From positions 62,001-126,000 of the forward strand of contig JACRKC010000080.1 in the NCBI GenBank assembly GCA_016235555.1: a stretch of DNA of 64,000 bases. The letters are read 5' to 3'. The notes under the pieces are model-generated. The model saw only the letters and a program-made list of their open reading frames with translations. It was not told the origin of the DNA and made no database searches. The DNA is from Verrucomicrobiota bacterium (GTDB lineage: Bacteria; Verrucomicrobiota; Verrucomicrobiia; Opitutales; Opitutaceae). The position numbers and the translations under genes were made by a program. Positions 10,207 through 52,370 of the stretch are shown here, one piece after another; positions within the stretch are counted from its first letter, which is position 1, and each line of letters opens with the position of its first letter.

Positions 10207-10247
10207 GTAAAAGATGTCGGGTGCGGAAAATGGACTGTGGCGATCGA

Positions 10248-10330
10248 GGTGGAGCGCGTTGCCCTCAACGCGCTTTCAGGATTTTCGCACGGTGCCCAAA
10301 CCAGCGCGTTGGGGGCAACGCGCTCCACCT
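10248..10330. repeat. Paired palindrome, family E (copy 1)
   Basis: Mirrored pair: GGTGGAGCGCGTTGCCCTCA on the left and GGGGGCAACGCGCTCCACC on the right. It occupies the place where the C-terminal half of the adjacent sigma gene should be. Other copies are at 27338-27416 and 51336-51454. Confidence 0.85.
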
Positions 10331-10693
10331 CGGCACGGCGCGGCTTTGAATGAGCGTGGGTTCGACTGCATGGTTCCGTTTAGAGACGGGAAGACGGCGA
10401 AAATGGGTTATCGCTTCCGTCGGATGGGCCGCGCGACGGCGGAAGAAATCGAGAGCGGTGTTGCGCGCGGTGGTGAAGAGCAAGGCCTTGGTGTAGCGCA
10501 CGGTGCCGTCGGCCTTGGCGCGCAGGGTGCGGGTGTAGGCTTCCTGCACGATGTCGTCGTGGTCCGAGAGCGAGGGAAACCGGGCCTGGAGGTAGGCGCG
10601 CAGGGCGGGTTTGTGTGGCTGCACTTCCGCGGCGAACCACCGGGTGAGGTTCGCGGGCGGCTCCGGAGACGAGTCGGACAACGCGGCAGGCAC
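10265..10693 (-). pseudogene. Truncated ECF sigma factor (sigma-2 only)
   Basis: Remnant of a FecI-like sigma factor (142 codons from a GTG at 10693). The N-terminus matches the other two sigma factors of the window ('TRWFAAEVQPHKPALRAYL'), and sigma-2 is present ('HDDIVQEAYTRTLRA', 'TTARNTALDFFRRR'). After about residue 90 the homology stops, and the last third is encoded by the family E palindrome. The whole sigma-4 region with its helix-turn-helix is missing, so it should not recognise a -35 element. It precedes the receptor at 7150-10206, where a full sigma-FecR pair would be expected. Loss by repeat insertion plus deletion is inferred. Confidence 0.8.
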
Positions 10694-16562: not shown

Positions 16563-17987
16563 GTGACCAATCACCCTGAGCCCGATCGAGCGCGAGCAGT
16601 GCGGTGGTGGCAGCCTGCGTTGCTGGCGTCGCTGGCCGGCGGCTTGGGCTGGGGCATCCGCGGACAATACGGCCACGAGACGGGCGCGATGATCGCGGGC
16701 GTGCTCGTGGGCGGCGTGCTCGTGTTTCTGTTCGGACGCGGCGCCGACAAGCTGACGGCGATGCGCGCCGCCGCGCTCGGGGCGATCGCGATCGGCATCG
16801 GCGGCTCGATGACCTACGGGCAAACCATCGGACTCACGCAGAACCAGCCGGTCGTCGGCAACTGGGAAGCGTGGCGCTGGGGCATGCTCGGGCTGGGGAT
16901 CAAGGGCGCGGTGTGGATCGGGTTGGCGGGTTTGTTTTTTGGCATGGGGCTCGGTGGGGTGCGCTACACGTGGCGGCAGATGTTCGGGCTGATGGCGGCG
17001 ATGGGCGCGCTCTACGTGGGGGGAGCGTGGCTGCTCAACTCGCCCTTCGATCCGGCGAACAAAGTGCTGCCGCGGATCTATTTCTCCGCGTCGTGGCACT
17101 GGCAGCCAGACGCGGGGCCGGAACTGAAACCGCGACGCGAAGTGTGGGGCGGGTTGTTGTGCGCGCTGCTCGGCGCGTGGGCGTGGGCTGGCTGGGTGCG
17201 ACGCGATGCGCTCGCGCGGCGCCTCGCGCTGTGGGGCATGCTCGGTGGCGTCGGATTTCCACTCGGGCAGTGCCTGCAATCGTGGCACGCGTGGCAGCCG
17301 GAGGTTTTCCGCGGCGGCGGGTGGGCGACCCTCGCGCCGCACATGAACTGGTGGAACTGGATGGAGACGACGTTCGGCGCCGTGATGGGCGCGTGCCTCG
17401 GGCTCGGCCTGTGGCTGAATCGCGATTTGATCCGGCTGCATCGCGACGAGACGACGCCGATGCTCTCGGCGCCGGTGGAATGGGCGCTCGTCGCCGGGCA
17501 TGTGACGCTGCTGCTGCTCGGCGAGTTTTCGCGGCTGCGGTGGGCCAATGCGCTCTACGATCCGGGGCTGGTGATCGCGTGCATCCCGCTCGTGGCGGTG
17601 GCGGGCGGGCGTTGGTGGCCGTATCTCGCGCTACTGCCGATCACGCTCGTGCCGATCGCGGGAAAGACGATCCGGCGGCTCGCTTATGAGACGCCGAAGA
17701 TCGGCGAGGCGGCCGGGTGGGCGCTGTATGGCATGCTGCCGCTCGCGGCGACGGTCGCGGTCGCGTGGTGGATCGCGCGGCGCGAGGAGTTCGACGGACG
17801 CGAGGCGGCGCGGTGGGCGCTGCTCGTGAACGCGTGGCTCTACTGCGGACTGAATTTTGCGTTCTTCGATTTTCCGTGGCCGTGGCTGGCGTGGACGGCG
17901 CGCACGCCGAACGCGATCGTTTACGCGGTCTGCGTGGTGGGGATCACGGTGGCGTGCGTTACGGACGCGCGGCGGAGACGGGGGTAG
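16563..17987 (+). CDS. Polytopic membrane protein of unknown function
   Basis: Not recognised with confidence. From the GTG at 16563 it encodes 474 residues with about 10-12 hydrophobic segments, including 'AMIAGVLVGGVLVFLFG', 'GLGIKGAVWIGLAGLFFGMG' and a C-terminal 'AIVYAVCVVGITVACVTDA'. It is rich in Trp, with a glycine-rich, charged motif near the N-terminus ('GLGWGIRGQYGHETGAMIAG') that could line a pore or active site. It is divergent from a TonB receptor, so a role in taking up or processing the same ligand is possible (inference). The stop codon lies inside a palindromic repeat. An upstream ATG-initiated version would overlap the receptor gene and lacks supporting features. Confidence 0.75.
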   Translation: MTNHPEPDRARAVRWWQPALLASLAGGLGWGIRGQYGHETGAMIAGVLVGGVLVFLFGRGADKLTAMRAAALGAIAIGIGGSMTYGQTIGLTQNQPVVGNWEAWRWGMLGLGIKGAVWIGLAGLFFGMGLGGVRYTWRQMFGLMAAMGALYVGGAWLLNSPFDPANKVLPRIYFSASWHWQPDAGPELKPRREVWGGLLCALLGAWAWAGWVRRDALARRLALWGMLGGVGFPLGQCLQSWHAWQPEVFRGGGWATLAPHMNWWNWMETTFGAVMGACLGLGLWLNRDLIRLHRDETTPMLSAPVEWALVAGHVTLLLLGEFSRLRWANALYDPGLVIACIPLVAVAGGRWWPYLALLPITLVPIAGKTIRRLAYETPKIGEAAGWALYGMLPLAATVAVAWWIARREEFDGREAARWALLVNAWLYCGLNFAFFDFPWPWLAWTARTPNAIVYAVCVVGITVACVTDARRRRG

Positions 17988-18138
17988 GTCGGGGTTTATC
18001 CCCGACATCCGCTGCAGACGGTCGAGGTGTCGGGCGTAAAGCCCGACCTACGGCAGGCGTCCAGATATCAACTGCCATTGGTTTTTTCGTTTTGTTCGAG
18101 TGGCGCGATCCTCCGACATTGACAGACAGCGGACGCGG
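17983..18138. repeat. Direct repeat D, copy 1, with internal hairpins
   Basis: Begins with mirrored hairpins (GTAGGTCGGGGTTTATCCCC ... GGGCGTAAAGCCCGACCTAC) and continues through a conserved tail (GTTCGAGTGGCGCGATCC, then GACATTGACAGACAGCGGAC). The same ~155-base unit recurs at 18277-18432. It overlaps the stop codon of the plus-strand membrane-protein gene. Confidence 0.85.
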
Positions 18139-18276: not shown

Positions 18277-18432
18277 GGTAGGTCGGGGTTTATCCCCGAC
18301 ATCCGGGGCAGACGGACGAGTGTCGGGCGTGAAGCCCGACCTATGGCTAACGTCCAAATATCAACAGCCATTGTTCTTTGGAGTTTGGTTCGAGTGGCGC
18401 GATCCGCTGACATTGACAGACAGCGGACGCGG
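18277..18432. repeat. Direct repeat D, copy 2
   Basis: Second copy of the D unit, same order and orientation as 17983-18138, with a few substitutions. A further short hairpin of the same type (GGGGTCGGGCGACCCCGACC) lies at about 18473-18494 and overlaps the stop codon of the phosphatase gene. Confidence 0.85.
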
Positions 18433-23859: not shown

Positions 23860-23918
23860 GTGGCACGGGTCGCCGGACCCGTGGGTGAGAGGATCACGGG
23901 TCGGGAGACCCGTGCCAC
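23860..23918. repeat. Paired palindrome, family A (copy 2)
   Basis: GTGGCACGGGTCGCCGGACC and its mirrored partner ending GGGAGACCCGTGCCAC, in the gap between the CBM9-like gene and the upstream beta-propeller/cytochrome gene. Confidence 0.85.
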
Positions 23919-26076: not shown

Positions 26077-27521
26077 GGCTGGGCGGCGCCGGACTTGCGG
26101 CGGATTTCGATGGTGAATTCACCGGCGGCGGACGAGGCGAAGGTCGCGCGGTCGCCGTCGCGCACCAGGCCGGTCAGGGCGATATCTGCGCCCGTCTGCG
26201 GCTCGAAATCGATCCAGAGCGGCCCGCGTCCGGCGCCGACCCGGAATCGCCGGACGAGGCCGGCGCCACCGGCGGTCGCGGCGAGCGTCTCGAACACGTC
26301 GCGCCCTTCGATCTGGTAGTGAAACTCGGGGCCGGCCGCGGTGAGCCGGTAGCCGCGGAACTGAAACGCAGGCTCGCGGCCGGGCGCGCCGGCGCGGAGC
26401 GGCTGCCAGTTTTTTTCGCGATAAAAAACCGGACCGAAGATGCGCGCGGGTTCGCCCTGTTTCGTGAGCCAGCGCGGACGCAGATCGGCGAAGTCACCAT
26501 CCCAGACAAAATTGACGCCGCCGCGCACGGGATCGAAGCAGACGCCGGGTCCGCTGGGAAACGTGATGGCGAACGAGCCCGGATGGCTCTCCGGCATGAA
26601 CGTGCGCTGCACGATCGGTTGCGCGCCGGGGATCGGGCGGCGGGCGGTCCAGCGCACGGCGTTGGCGACGATCTGTAGATAGGCGGCATCGGCGAAGAGC
26701 GCGGCGCTCGCGGGGACGAGGTGGGCGATGCGGCTGGCGCCGCGGCGGCGCAGCCACGCGAGCGGCGTGGTGTCCTCGCCGACCGTGCCCTCCATGATGA
26801 GCTGTGCATCGGCGGCGAGTTTCTGCCACGCCGGCATGGGCTGCGGCGTCTCGAAGCGCACGACCCCCGCGAAGATCGGATGGGGAAACAGATTGATGAC
26901 GGACATCGGCGCGCCGTCGGCGAAGCGCCCGCCGGGCTCGGCGCCGAGGTAGTCGGCGAGGAAATCGGGCACGGCGTCCCAGGCGTCGCGCGCGGCGGCG
27001 AGCACGAGCACGCCGCGGCGGGCGGCGAGAAATTCGCGGAGCGTCGCCACGTCGGTCGGGCCGAGCTGCCCCGGCCCGCGGTGAAACACGGCGGCGTGCG
27101 CCTCGCGCAACGCGGCGAGGGAGAGGGTGCCGTCGGGGAGTTTCGGTGCGGCGGTGACGGTGGCGTCGGGTCCGAACGTGGTGGCGAGTGCGGCGCGAAA
27201 CGATTCGGCCTTCGCGTCGGCGGAGACGAGGCAGATGCGCAGCGGATCGGCGGGTTGGGTGGACGACGGTTGGGCGGGGGCGAGCGAGCCCAAGGCGGCG
27301 AGCACGAGGCTCACGGTGAGACGGAAGATGGCCGTCGGGGTGGAGCGCGCTGACCGCAACGCGCTCGGGCCACGGCGTGACTCCAAAAAGCGCGTTGGGG
27401 TCAACGCGCTCCACCCCGATCCACACGATTCGTCGGCGAAAGCAATTTCGATGGCACGAATGCTGCCGGGAATCCGCCCGTGGCGCGAGGCGAGGCGGGC
27501 GATGGGAGCGGGTGGGGGCAT
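26073..27521 (-). CDS. ThuA-like exported protein, 5' end altered by a repeat
   Basis: The core (about residues 85-290 of this reading) resembles the ThuA / class-I glutamine-amidotransferase-like fold ('PLRICLVSADAKAESFRAAL', 'VFHRGPGQLGPTDVATLREF', 'RGVLVLAAA'). A C-terminal beta domain follows, as often seen next to the cytochrome c proteins of this phylum; ThuA proteins are linked to disaccharide metabolism. The start is uncertain: the natural signal peptide ('FRLTVSLVLAALGSLAPAQ') has no ATG in front of it, because a family E palindrome (27338-27416) lies directly upstream. Candidates are the ATG at 27521, which adds a repeat-encoded tail, or a GTG at 27314 inside the signal peptide. Operon with 23962-26076 (ATGA overlap). 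Confidence 0.75.
   Translation of the reverse strand: MPPPAPIARLASRHGRIPGSIRAIEIAFADESCGSGWSALTPTRFLESRRGPSALRSARSTPTAIFRLTVSLVLAALGSLAPAQPSSTQPADPLRICLVSADAKAESFRAALATTFGPDATVTAAPKLPDGTLSLAALREAHAAVFHRGPGQLGPTDVATLREFLAARRGVLVLAAARDAWDAVPDFLADYLGAEPGGRFADGAPMSVINLFPHPIFAGVVRFETPQPMPAWQKLAADAQLIMEGTVGEDTTPLAWLRRRGASRIAHLVPASAALFADAAYLQIVANAVRWTARRPIPGAQPIVQRTFMPESHPGSFAITFPSGPGVCFDPVRGGVNFVWDGDFADLRPRWLTKQGEPARIFGPVFYREKNWQPLRAGAPGREPAFQFRGYRLTAAGPEFHYQIEGRDVFETLAATAGGAGLVRRFRVGAGRGPLWIDFEPQTGADIALTGLVRDGDRATFASSAAGEFTIEIRRKSGAAQP
27338..27416. repeat. Paired palindrome, family E (copy 2)
   Basis: GGTGGAGCGCGCTGACCGCA facing GGGGTCAACGCGCTCCACC. It sits exactly where the start codon of the ThuA-like gene would be expected. 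Confidence 0.85.
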
Positions 27522-27594: not shown

Positions 27595-27734
27595 GTGTGA
27601 CTCAAATTGAGGCCAGCGATTTGTAGCGGCGGTCCATGACCGCCGTCGAAGCTCGGCTGGCGGTTTGTCGGCGGTCACAGACCGCCGCTACAGCCAAGGC
27701 CTTCGGAAACTGACCTCAGTTCGAGTTACACCCG
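27595..27734. mobile_element. MITE-like element, family C (copy 1)
   Basis: About 140 bases with terminal inverted repeats (GTGTGACTCAAATTGAGGCC at one end, GACCTCAGTTCGAGTTACAC at the other) and internal mirrored hairpins on TAGCGGCGGTC/GACCGCCGCTA. No coding capacity. Other copies are at 31531-31645, 46282-46422 and 52231-52370, with a diverged one at 27871-27980. It lies in the gene-free stretch 27522-27996. Confidence 0.85.
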
Positions 27735-31530: not shown

Positions 31531-31645
31531 CAGCTGTAGCGGTGGTCTGTGACCGCCGTCGTGGCGGCAGGGTATGAGTTCGGCGGTCATAGACCGCCGC
31601 TACAGCCAAGGCCTTCGGAACTGACCTCAGTTTGAGTTACACCCC
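31531..31645. mobile_element. MITE-like element, family C (copy 3)
   Basis: Carries the inner mirrored arms CTGTAGCGGTGGTCTGTGAC / GGTCATAGACCGCCGCTACA and the right terminal repeat CTGACCTCAGTTTGAGTTAC. The left terminus is truncated. It adjoins the oxidoreductase remnant. Confidence 0.8.
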
Positions 31646-42791: not shown

Positions 42792-44672
42792 ATGTCCGCC
42801 CCCGCCATCTTCCTCAGCTATGCCCGCGATGATGCCGCCGCGGCGCGTCGCGTCGCCGAGGCGTTGCGCAGCTCCGGGGTGGAGGTGTGGTTCGACGAAA
42901 ACGAACTGCGCGGCGGCGACGAGTGGGACCGGAAAATCCGCAAACAGATCGACGAGTGCACGCTGTTTGTGCCGCTGATTTCGCGGCACACGGAGGCGCG
43001 GGCCAAGGGCTACTTCCGGCTCGAATGGAAACTCGCCGTCGATCAGATGCAGATGATGGCCGCGGGCGTGCCGTTCATCGCGCCGGTCGCGATCGACGAC
43101 ACGCGCGAGACGGGTGCGGTCGTGCCGCCGGAATTTCTGCGCGTGCAGTGGATGCGCCTGCCCGGTGCGCTGCCGACGCCGGAGTTCGTGGCGCAGATGA
43201 AGCGGCTGCTGGAGGCGCCGAAGGTGGCGCCGGTGGATCCCGGTGTGGCACGGGCTTTCCAGCCCGTGGGCTCGGAAAACACGGGCTGGAAAGCCCGTGC
43301 CACGAAAACCCGCATCCCCGCCGCCGTGTGGATCGGCGCGATTGCCGTCGTCGTGATCGGAGTCGCGGCGACGTTTCTTGCCACGCGGAAGGGCGAGCCG
43401 AATGCGGGCGCAGGGACGCGCCCGCCCACCACGGAGAAGTCCGCCACGCCCGCGCCGCCCTCCGAAGCGCGCCAGCTCGTCGCGAAGGCGCGGGCGCTTT
43501 ACGAGCCGTGGGACCTCGCGCGGCGCGAGGATTTTTCGCTCGCGGAGCAACTGCTCAAGAAGGCGGTGGAGCTCGACCCGACCGACGGCGAGGCGTGGGC
43601 GGCGTATGCGATTCTCTCCTGCGGCATGAGCGGCCTGCTTCACGACCCCTCGGCGGAGCGGATCTCAGCCGCGCGCACGCAGGCGGAAAACGCGCTCAAG
43701 TTTGCCCCCGACTCCGGCCAAGCCCGGTTCGCCCGCGCGTTCAGCCTGTGGCTCAATCCGGCCACTCGGGATGAGTCGATTCGGCTCCTGCGAGCCGAGG
43801 CAGGACGCCAGCCGACCAACCGTGTGGTCGTGCGCGTCACTGGGAACGCGCTACGCAGGAGCTCGCAACATGAACAGGCGCTCGTTTATCTGGACCGGGC
43901 CGTCGCGCTGCCCGGCAGCGACCCGGTATCCCAACATAATCGCGCCGAATCGCTGTTTTCGTTGGGGCGGTTCGACGAAGCGGAGGTGGCGTGGGATGAG
44001 GCGCTGGCCCTGGCCCCGCAGATCATCAATGCGCACCGGGGAAAACTGAATTTGCTCCTGGAGGTTCGGGGCGACCTCGCGCGAGCGCAGGCTCATTTGG
44101 CCAAGGTGCCGCCGGACTTCTTCCTCGATGCTCGAGGAGCATATCTGGCCTACACAGTAGCGCTCTATGCGAGGGATCACGGAAAATGTTTGGAATATCT
44201 GCGTCACGCCAATGACTACATTCCGGGCGTTGGCCCAAAGGCGGCCCTGACGGCGGTCGCTCATCGTTTGGCCGGCAACGCCGAGGCTGCCCGGACCGAC
44301 TTCCAAGCGGCTCTCCGGCTGGTGAACGACCGGCTCGCGGCCGAACCGAATAGCATCGCTCTGCTTGCTCACCGTGCGGCAATCCTCATCGAGCTCGGTG
44401 ACCGGGCGGTCGCGGAACCGCTGGTCCGGGAAATTCGTCAGCGGGTGAACGCCGGTGATTCGACCCTCGGCGCGCCCCGCCGAAGCGTCGCGCAGTTGCT
44501 CGCCGGCTTGGGGGATCACGAAGGCGCGCTCGCGACCTTGGAATCGGCGAGACCATCTGAGCTTTTCGCCGCGCAAGGTTCGACGTCCCTGCGCCACCAC
44601 CCCGTCTGGGAACCGCTGCGCGGGAACCCGCGGTTCGAGGCGCTGCTGAAGTCGGCGATGCCGAAGAAGTGA
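42792..44672 (+). CDS. TIR domain - membrane segment - TPR protein
   Basis: Protein of 626 residues, probably anchored in the inner membrane. Seen: N-terminal TIR domain (about 4-130) with 'AIFLSYARDDAAAARRVAEA', 'VEVWFDENELRGGDEWDRKI' and 'YFRLEWKLA', where E78 is at the position of the catalytic Glu of NAD-cleaving TIR domains. A linker (about 145-174), one membrane segment ('AVWIGAIAVVVIGVAATFL', about 178-196), and an extended TPR-type helical region (about 220-620) follow. Odd: linker residues 152-171 are encoded by a family A palindrome. TIR domains in bacteria act in defence or signalling; TPR repeats would bind a partner. No partner gene (cyclase, ThsA, Argonaute) lies nearby, so the role is open. 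Confidence 0.88.
   Translation: MSAPAIFLSYARDDAAAARRVAEALRSSGVEVWFDENELRGGDEWDRKIRKQIDECTLFVPLISRHTEARAKGYFRLEWKLAVDQMQMMAAGVPFIAPVAIDDTRETGAVVPPEFLRVQWMRLPGALPTPEFVAQMKRLLEAPKVAPVDPGVARAFQPVGSENTGWKARATKTRIPAAVWIGAIAVVVIGVAATFLATRKGEPNAGAGTRPPTTEKSATPAPPSEARQLVAKARALYEPWDLARREDFSLAEQLLKKAVELDPTDGEAWAAYAILSCGMSGLLHDPSAERISAARTQAENALKFAPDSGQARFARAFSLWLNPATRDESIRLLRAEAGRQPTNRVVVRVTGNALRRSSQHEQALVYLDRAVALPGSDPVSQHNRAESLFSLGRFDEAEVAWDEALALAPQIINAHRGKLNLLLEVRGDLARAQAHLAKVPPDFFLDARGAYLAYTVALYARDHGKCLEYLRHANDYIPGVGPKAALTAVAHRLAGNAEAARTDFQAALRLVNDRLAAEPNSIALLAHRAAILIELGDRAVAEPLVREIRQRVNAGDSTLGAPRRSVAQLLAGLGDHEGALATLESARPSELFAAQGSTSLRHHPVWEPLRGNPRFEALLKSAMPKK
43245..43303. repeat. Paired palindrome, family A, inside the TIR-TPR gene
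   Basis: GTGGCACGGGCTTTCCAGCC facing GGCTGGAAAGCCCGTGCCAC, near-perfect, wholly within coding sequence between the TIR domain and the membrane segment. It encodes 'VARAFQPVGSENTGWKARAT'. The same element type is intergenic at 690 and 23860. Confidence 0.9.
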
Positions 44673-44697: not shown

Positions 44698-44790
44698 TCG
44701 TGGACGAGGCGTCCCGCCTCGTGGTTCGGGACGATCGGGTGGGAATTGAGAAACTAAGAAAAAGCACTGAGGCGAGACGCCTCAGCCACT
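44698..44790. repeat. Paired palindrome, family B (copy)
   Basis: TCGTGGACGAGGCGTCCCGC facing CTGAGGCGAGACGCCTCAGC, in the gap between the convergent TIR-TPR and sulfatase genes. A bidirectional terminator role is possible. Confidence 0.8.
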
Positions 44791-46281: not shown

Positions 46282-46422
46282 CGTGACTTAAACTGAGGTC
46301 AGCGATCTGTAGATGCGCGGCGGTCTATGACCGCCGGCGTTGCGCCAAGGGCATTCGTTCGGCGGTCATAGACCGCCGCTACAGCCGAGGCATTCGGAAA
46401 CGGACTCAGTTTGAGTTACGCC
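46282..46422. mobile_element. MITE-like element, family C (copy 4)
   Basis: Outer repeat GTGACTTAAACTGAGGTCAG at the left and GACTCAGTTTGAGTTACGCC at the right, with inner arms GCGGCGGTCTATGACCGCC / GGCGGTCATAGACCGCCGCT. First of three elements packed into the gene-free stretch 46206-46686. Confidence 0.85.
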
Positions 46423-51175: not shown

Positions 51176-51207
51176 AATTCGCTCTCAAGATGGGCCGACC
51201 GCGAATG

Positions 51208-51268
51208 GTAGGAGCCTGCTTGCAGGCGATGGGCAGCGAGCTGAATCGCCTGCAAGCAGGCTCCTACC
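51208..51268. repeat. Mirrored palindrome, family I
   Basis: GGTAGGAGCCTGCTTGCAGG facing CCTGCAAGCAGGCTCCTACC, near-perfect arms with about 20 bases between. The unit resembles REP sequences known from other bacteria such as pseudomonads. Confidence 0.85.
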
Positions 51269-52230: not shown

Positions 52231-52370
52231 GGTGTGATGCAAACTGAGGTCAGCGATTTGTAGCGGCGGTCTATGACCGCCGTCGTTGCACCAAGGGTAT
52301 TCGTTCGGCGGTCATAGACCGCCGCTACAACCGAGGCAGACGAGAACTGACCTCAGTTTGAGTCCAACCC
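52231..52370. mobile_element. MITE-like element, family C (copy 5)
   Basis: The best-preserved copy: GTGTGATGCAAACTGAGGTC at the left, CTGACCTCAGTTTGAGTCCA at the right, and inner arms TAGCGGCGGTCTATGACCGC / GGTCATAGACCGCCGCTACA. In the gene-free stretch 52152-52523. Confidence 0.87.

Follow-up and report, generated by a model that had tools for sequence, protein, structure and literature searches.

At 43245-43303, within the coding sequence of a TIR-transmembrane-TPR protein from an Opitutaceae bacterium, we identified a REPIN formed by two GTGG-headed REP hairpins in inverted orientation. The window analysed is a 64,000-nucleotide stretch of one contig. We consider it likely (probability about 0.7) that the element occupies a flexible juxtamembrane linker and is one case of a recurrent colonisation of Opitutaceae TIR linkers by REPINs of several families. 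In this process, REPINs mobilised by RAYT-type (Y1 HUH) transposases would enter TIR-to-membrane linkers, and the survivors would be copies that lack an in-frame stop and have a frame-keeping length. The resulting peptides, of about 16 to 26 residues, would then be retained like any other flexible linker, with weak purifying selection acting on them. Linker REPINs would erode over time and other REPINs would then replace them. Linkers probably also pass between paralogues by recombination, with TIR and C-terminal modules only loosely coupled. Comparisons of sequence establish REPIN identity, enrichment behind TIR domains, a frame and stop filter, a purifying signature, age and incongruence with the TIR tree.

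A REPIN encodes 20 linker residues behind the TIR domain

The host gene is an open reading frame of 626 codons (42792-44672, forward strand). It encodes a TIR domain (Pfam TIR_2, E 2e-19; residues 6-126, 42807-43169, forward strand), a membrane helix (residues 178-197, 43323-43382, forward strand) and a region matched by several TPR models over the cut-off. No defence model matches the protein beyond its TIR domain, and the 10 PADLOC matches reach residues 1-106 at most.

The left REP arm (43245-43268, forward strand) and the inverted right arm (43280-43303, reverse strand) are 24 nucleotides each and flank an 11-nucleotide loop (43269-43279, forward strand). The pair, called near-perfect in a preliminary description, is exact (100% complementary). 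The arm, GTGG-CACGGGCT-ttcc-AGCCCGTG, has the GTRG head and short hairpin of GTAG-superfamily REPs. Each arm forms a GTGG-headed hairpin on its own, so the block is a REP doublet, and as RNA the whole is predicted to fold as one hairpin (-55.8 kcal/mol, z -11.6). The arm pattern occurs six times in the window, against 0.01 copies expected by chance, in three pairs that begin at 690, 23860 and 43245. The first two (690-745, 56 nucleotides; 23860-23918, 59 nucleotides; no strand assigned) are intergenic, as previously described, and we found no coding frame across either.

The 59-nucleotide block fills 20 codons with one extra base (43304). In agreement with the preliminary description, they are in frame and lie in the linker: 43245-43304 (forward strand) encodes residues 152-171, VARAFQPVGSENTGWKARAT, after TIR_2 and before the helix. 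Read-through of the REPIN block is predicted to give a peptide spanning VARAFQPVGSENTG. Residues 144-221, around the helix, have pLDDT below 50 in a structure model (mean 73.6) that was built from five aligned sequences and also scores low in parts of the TIR domain.

Other REP-like inverted pairs (heads GTAGGTCGGG, GTAGCGGCGGTC and GTAGGAGCCTGC) lie at 17984-18051, 18279-18343, 27622-27692, 31533-31606, 46317-46379, 51207-51268 and 52258-52330, which brings the number of REP families in the window to about four. Another REPIN family is likely represented by two long inverted repeats, 94 to 97% complementary, that contain GGTGGAGCGCG (10245-10332 and 27335-27419). Directly 3' of the TIR-TPR gene, at 44700-44790, is a GTGG-headed REP pair, with one arm matched by pattern and the other recognised by eye. 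In other TIR paralogues the GTGGCTGAGGCG family also follows the membrane helix, where it is read as the peptide LRRDASATT.

Family A is dispersed in the genome and flanks a candidate mover

REPs occur as dispersed copies, and we identified 182 exact family A arms in the 8.03-Mb genome, compared with 0 matches to a control pattern. The CTTTCC arm subtype found in the window is rare, with 10 arms genome-wide at one mismatch or fewer.

A profile search gave ten Y1 transposase matches in the genome. The Y1_Tnp gene at locus L077 (contig C109) has family A REPINs on either side, the arrangement expected of a RAYT gene. Two other Y1 loci are flanked by REPs of families that also occupy linkers, L076 by family B and L075 by family H. 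Families A, B and H are thus each present both in TIR linkers and beside Y1 genes, which gives three linker families a candidate mover in this genome and suggests that RAYTs may move linker REPINs. No element of the CTTTCC subtype was seen beside a RAYT gene in the Y1 loci examined.

We surveyed coding status for 75 family A elements in fetched pieces, from places among the matches listed, using a codon score devised for this analysis. Neither TIR-linker location nor a coding call applied to 59 of the 75, in a test that recovers 4 of 8 known TIR cases. Eight in-frame elements were first called in other genes; a retest with a wider window keeps seven, adds one on contig C38 and drops one on C49. 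Because the test recovers just half of the known cases, the count in other genes (about eight) is a lower bound and the true number is probably higher. The TIR specificity of in-frame REPINs is therefore probably softer than the counts suggest. No clear target-site consensus emerged from the 8 nucleotides on each side of 31 non-TIR and six TIR pairs.

Palindromes are enriched behind TIR domains

The 8-Mb genome contains 50 TIR_2 matches, several of them clustered (contigs C84 and C21). Enrichment tests covered 34 of these; the others have open frames below 250 residues or lie at loci outside the test. Within 240 nucleotides behind the TIR domain, 17 of the 34 genes have a strong palindrome (score of at least 13), before the helix in 16 cases and behind it in one (C139). 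None of 161 windows further along these genes and none of 680 codon-shuffled linkers reached this threshold. Nor did any of 40 windows downstream of 14 kinase domains, where the highest score was 12 (15 of the 16 kinase matches were covered, one of them without a downstream window). A search of 480 nucleotides behind all 50 TIR matches gave 19 strong palindromes, one of these past a stop codon. Nine of the TIR matches left out of the tests score 8 or less (C38, C54, C99, C84:34295, C8 and fragments C60:23, C89, C90 and C138:46396).

A detector for GTRG-headed hairpins identified 26 of 34 TIR linkers, compared with 2 of 161 later windows and 21 of 680 shuffled linkers. Removal of four non-dispersed matches leaves 22 of 34; two of the four carry family K only (C84:42998 and C138:12571) and two carry hairpins of no dispersed family (C84:44961 and C53:72349), and the remaining 22 include one linker (C84:51694) caught by family G, which was not found dispersed. 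Among the 75 examined family A elements, eight lie in TIR linkers, compared with 0.14 expected under even placement.

Kinase domains themselves contain a palindrome with a score of at least 13 in 4 of 15 cases, two of which are in-frame family A elements. These two Ser/Thr kinases (L168, C46:13080-13136; L183, C64:583-639) carry the REPIN at an apparently equal place in the kinase domain, and both read it in a frame that the TIR linkers do not use.

REP-free and REP-bearing TIR linkers are equally long (medians of 34 and 33 residues, p 0.77, n 19 and 22; the helix is weak or its end was not found in 35 of 76 rows). Paralogues with linkers of equal length but no REP imply that a REP is not required. 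At locus L129, two neighbouring TIR genes without a clear helix (C80:56807 and C80:58752) have a REPIN peptide that makes up approximately the whole linker to the next module. Near the end of the TIR domain in three genes (L115, C13:9299; L132, C55:19769; L145, C84:48404), the peptide LRQAQG or LRQTQG may be another dispersed repeat, read in frame.

Linker REPINs keep one frame, avoid a stop codon and show codon-level constraint

All 12 intact family A linker pairs are 59 nucleotides long and are read in one frame (VARV...). This length is found in 11 of 25 non-coding pairs (p 9e-4); length modulo 3 does not by itself separate the two groups (12 of 12 versus 19 of 25, p 0.15). Among seven clear in-frame family A cases in other genes, one uses the TIR-linker frame and six use another. 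Two further linker pairs, in relative G128, have a loop six bases longer and remain in frame. In relative G031, the linker copies on C99 and C102 follow a frameshift and are thus out of frame.

A common arm variant, TCTCCTGA, places an in-frame TGA stop in the linker frame when it occurs in the left arm. The TGA variant is found in 0 of 12 left linker arms (two of which belong to a subtype without the TGA site, so that 10 could carry it) and in 26 of 50 non-coding arms (p 7e-4). In the right linker arm, where TCTCCTGA is harmless, 8 of 12 have it.

We compared codon changes in 12 related linker-block pairs, which were hand-picked and are not independent, and counted 33.5 synonymous and 29.5 non-synonymous differences, a dN/dS-like ratio of 0.36 per site (P 3.6e-5). 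Inclusion of two pairs with G031, to make 14, raises it to 0.43 (P 2.2e-5), whereas an intergenic control of 97 non-coding pairs, translated in that frame, gives 1.03. The window block and its L193 orthologue differ by 5.5 synonymous and 1.5 non-synonymous changes; in L193, 5 of 24 positions no longer pair, yet 19 of 20 residues are kept. Other pairs are rich in amino-acid changes (synonymous to non-synonymous, 0 to 4 for C84 and 0 to 2 for C21 B). Those involving G031 (6 to 10 against the window, 8 to 10 against L193) weaken the codon signal. Taken together, the substitution pattern indicates that linker REPINs are under weak purifying selection.

The linker site is old and has been occupied by several REP families

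The preliminary description proposed a recent insertion tolerated because it falls in a linker. Tolerance agrees with the position of the residues in the stretch of pLDDT below 50. Recency does not hold: orthologues in other genera have family A at the same site, which rules out a recent single insertion and indicates that the REPIN of the window is old. In G031, which belongs to another genus, the orthologue (L189, 79% identity) carries a family A REPIN of the other arm subtype. This copy has two arm mismatches, differs from the window's block at 16 of 60 bases and may represent a replacement within family A. The L193 orthologue shares the window's subtype, with a loop that differs by one base and five arm mismatches. 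The absence of the block from some orthologues, which the preliminary description proposed to look for, took an unexpected form: L190 and L191 (63% identity) have a REP pair of the unrelated GTAGCCGGG family at the linker site. At the level of strains, no unoccupied site was seen next to an occupied one.

By anatomy or peptide, TIR linkers contain up to nine REP families (A to I). Families A, B, D and H are proven dispersed repeats. Family C has few genome matches, family G has 0 in 212 kb, family I is defined by peptide likeness only, and families E and F are described from linkers. Two other sequences near the helix were considered. Family K (VGRRVPAAAW, at the helix start) is ruled out as a REP, with 5 of its 7 genome matches within TIR genes. 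We do not claim the motif NAGAGTRPP, behind the helix, as a REP; it occurs once in 212 kb, within the gene of the window.

To place these families we used 47 linkers, out of a larger number of matches, and five loci of relatives (a sixth locus lacks a TIR domain), all picked for likeness to the window protein. Together with the genome's own linkers, 45 of 76 rows have a REP-family label. We compared matches with TIR places in eight relatives; G145, G070 and G015 also have matches and lie outside the comparison. The share of family A matches that lie in TIR linkers is 3 of 11 in G031, 3 of 13 in G128, 1 of 25 in G085, 0 of 3 in G037 and 0 of 1 in G053. For family D it is 2 of 2 in G065, 2 of 4 in G125, 1 of 2 in G148, 1 of 25 in G037, 0 of 2 in G031 and 0 of 2 in G053, and for family C it is 2 of 3 in G053. 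One match per genome is expected by construction, since TIR linkers served to define families C and D, and G031, G128 and G085 entered the comparison through a known linker. Linker matches not previously seen are those on C99 and C102 of G031, C220 and C284 of G128, C122 of G065 and C18:62891 of G037. G031 and G065 have 20 TIR_2 matches each, and both family D matches in G065 (at two mismatches or fewer) lie in TIR linkers, with none elsewhere.

REP-family labels are distributed almost at random on the TIR tree. The 76 rows require at least 37 family changes, compared with a mean of 41.8 (range 36-45) for shuffled labels, on a weakly resolved tree (34 of 73 inner branches open) on which labels are slightly clustered. 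Rows from the genome itself require 14 changes, compared with a shuffled mean of 14.4. Rows labelled 'none' include one or more family D linkers that were missed (such as G125, C220:32653), and eroded peptides underlie a few of the 'A' labels.

Probable exchange of linkers and modules between paralogues

We identified 61 family B arms genome-wide at two mismatches or fewer. One variant, with two paired changes from the reference arm, was found in four TIR linkers and nowhere else. At that position 27 of the arms carry a different variant, which is absent from the four linkers. The four TIR domains that precede the TIR-only variant are not one clade (p-AU 0.0019), in a test that presumes rows chosen before the tree; here the linkers determined the choice, at a point when a first tree had already been inspected. 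This scatter of one variant over a non-clade of TIR domains suggests that linkers probably moved between paralogues.

TIR identity and C-terminal identity are also uncoupled within C-terminal classes (Mantel r 0.12, p 0.25, n 10; r 0.16, p 0.12, n 14). TIR domains 86% identical in DNA are joined to different classes (one class name, AVLPF, is a motif label coined in this analysis), and the TIR tree rejects a single clade of TPR-class genes (p-AU 2.8e-5). The uncoupled identities and the scattered family B variant favour reshuffling of modules.

These observations raise the possibility that REPINs are kept as recombination joints, stop-free and near-identical repeats that allow in-frame swaps of TIR and sensor modules and are retained for it, like introns in exon shuffling. 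Such a role would fit the module exchange just described, the near-complete REPIN linkers of the two helix-free C80 genes and the finding that the REPIN is the most alike segment of the 12 intact linkers (mean identity of 84%, compared with 68% for the TIR domain, 57% for the 30 nucleotides before the REPIN and 61% for the 100 nucleotides after it). However, there is no sharp break at the REPIN. TIR identity correlates with identity of the next 100 nucleotides (r 0.54; 0.43 in the 12 intact linkers) and then fades (0.32, 0.16), over the helix and beyond. The near-zero correlation between REPIN and TIR identity (r -0.01) also fits insertion. REPINs are candidate crossover points, and we regard retention for this role as possible but doubtful.

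Tolerance, common ancestry and RNA structure as alternatives

Plain neutral tolerance would hold that REPINs land anywhere and survive only in flexible linkers. The low-confidence linker is consistent with this, as are the in-frame elements in other genes, which are probably more numerous than those counted. As a full account it seems to us rather unlikely, because it does not predict the excess over even placement, the lack of strong palindromes behind kinase domains, the retention of family D in TIR linkers alone in G065 or dN/dS-like ratios of 0.36-0.43. Within the recurrent colonisation that we favour, we infer an order of insertion and loss in which tolerance may be the main cause of retention, and a functional role as linker or recombination joint may be added to it. 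The enrichment itself may stem from tolerance, from retention or from a part played in module exchange.

A single ancestral insertion, spread by gene duplication and later diverged, would explain why the 12 intact family A linkers have equal position, frame and length and why the loops of the window and L193 are near-identical. It is improbable given the several unrelated REP families at the linker site, the nearly random labels on the TIR tree and a REPIN identity that does not follow TIR identity. Common ancestry likely fits sub-lineages only, such as the window and L193 or the C80 pair, and fails for the family as a whole.

A selected RNA hairpin that pauses ribosomes between the TIR domain and the membrane helix, suggested in the preliminary description and in keeping with the very stable predicted fold and interdomain position, is not needed and improbable, as L193 erodes the pairing yet retains the peptide and 17 of 34 stretches lack a strong palindrome.

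Relation to known REP systems and significance

Intragenic REPs of the GTAG superfamily have been published, and Opitutus terrae is the genome richest in the GTAG kind (PMC3733652). According to the main text of that report, over half of the intragenic REPs are dimers or groups that encode 20 to 30 residues, most O. terrae GTAG-20 elements are GTGG-headed, and flexible linkers are proposed as a possible reason for intragenic tolerance. The elements described here share the GTAG/GTGG heads, the doublets within open reading frames and a host of the same bacterial family. The main text of PMC3733652 places its stress on replication and repair genes, whereas we describe one gene family and one linker that hosts several REP families, and add evidence from frame, stops and codons. 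'Toll' and 'TIR domain' are absent from that main text; the gene list sits in the supplement, outside this check.

Rickettsia palindromic elements are described as protein-coding palindromes in unrelated genes (PMC10969869, PMC3733652). By these descriptions, the linker REPINs are similar in being palindromic mobile elements in frame within genes, here in a conserved gene, and differ in host. The REPIN/RAYT system, as set out in PMC3116915, comprises an inverted REP doublet that forms a hairpin and REPs beside a RAYT gene, and was defined in extragenic space. Our elements have the same doublet anatomy and RAYT-side REPs, but a share of them is coding. Among open-licence PMC papers retrieved on REPs with TIR domains, on REPINs with domain shuffling or gene fusion and on TIR domains in Opitutaceae, supplements aside, we found no report of this in-frame linker pattern. 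The recurrent use of one interdomain linker by several REP families appears to be new.

REPs were named and have mostly been studied as extragenic elements. Here they seem to act as a lasting supply of protein sequence at one defined position in an expanded TIR family, with a visible frame and stop filter. This makes it possible to test how bacterial interdomain linkers originate and whether selfish repeats aid recombination of modular receptors. More speculatively, Opitutaceae REPINs could be interchangeable in-frame joints that supply both linker and homology for the re-sorting of TIR, membrane and sensor modules among dozens of paralogues. If this is true, a selfish element would be a bacterial counterpart of exon shuffling.
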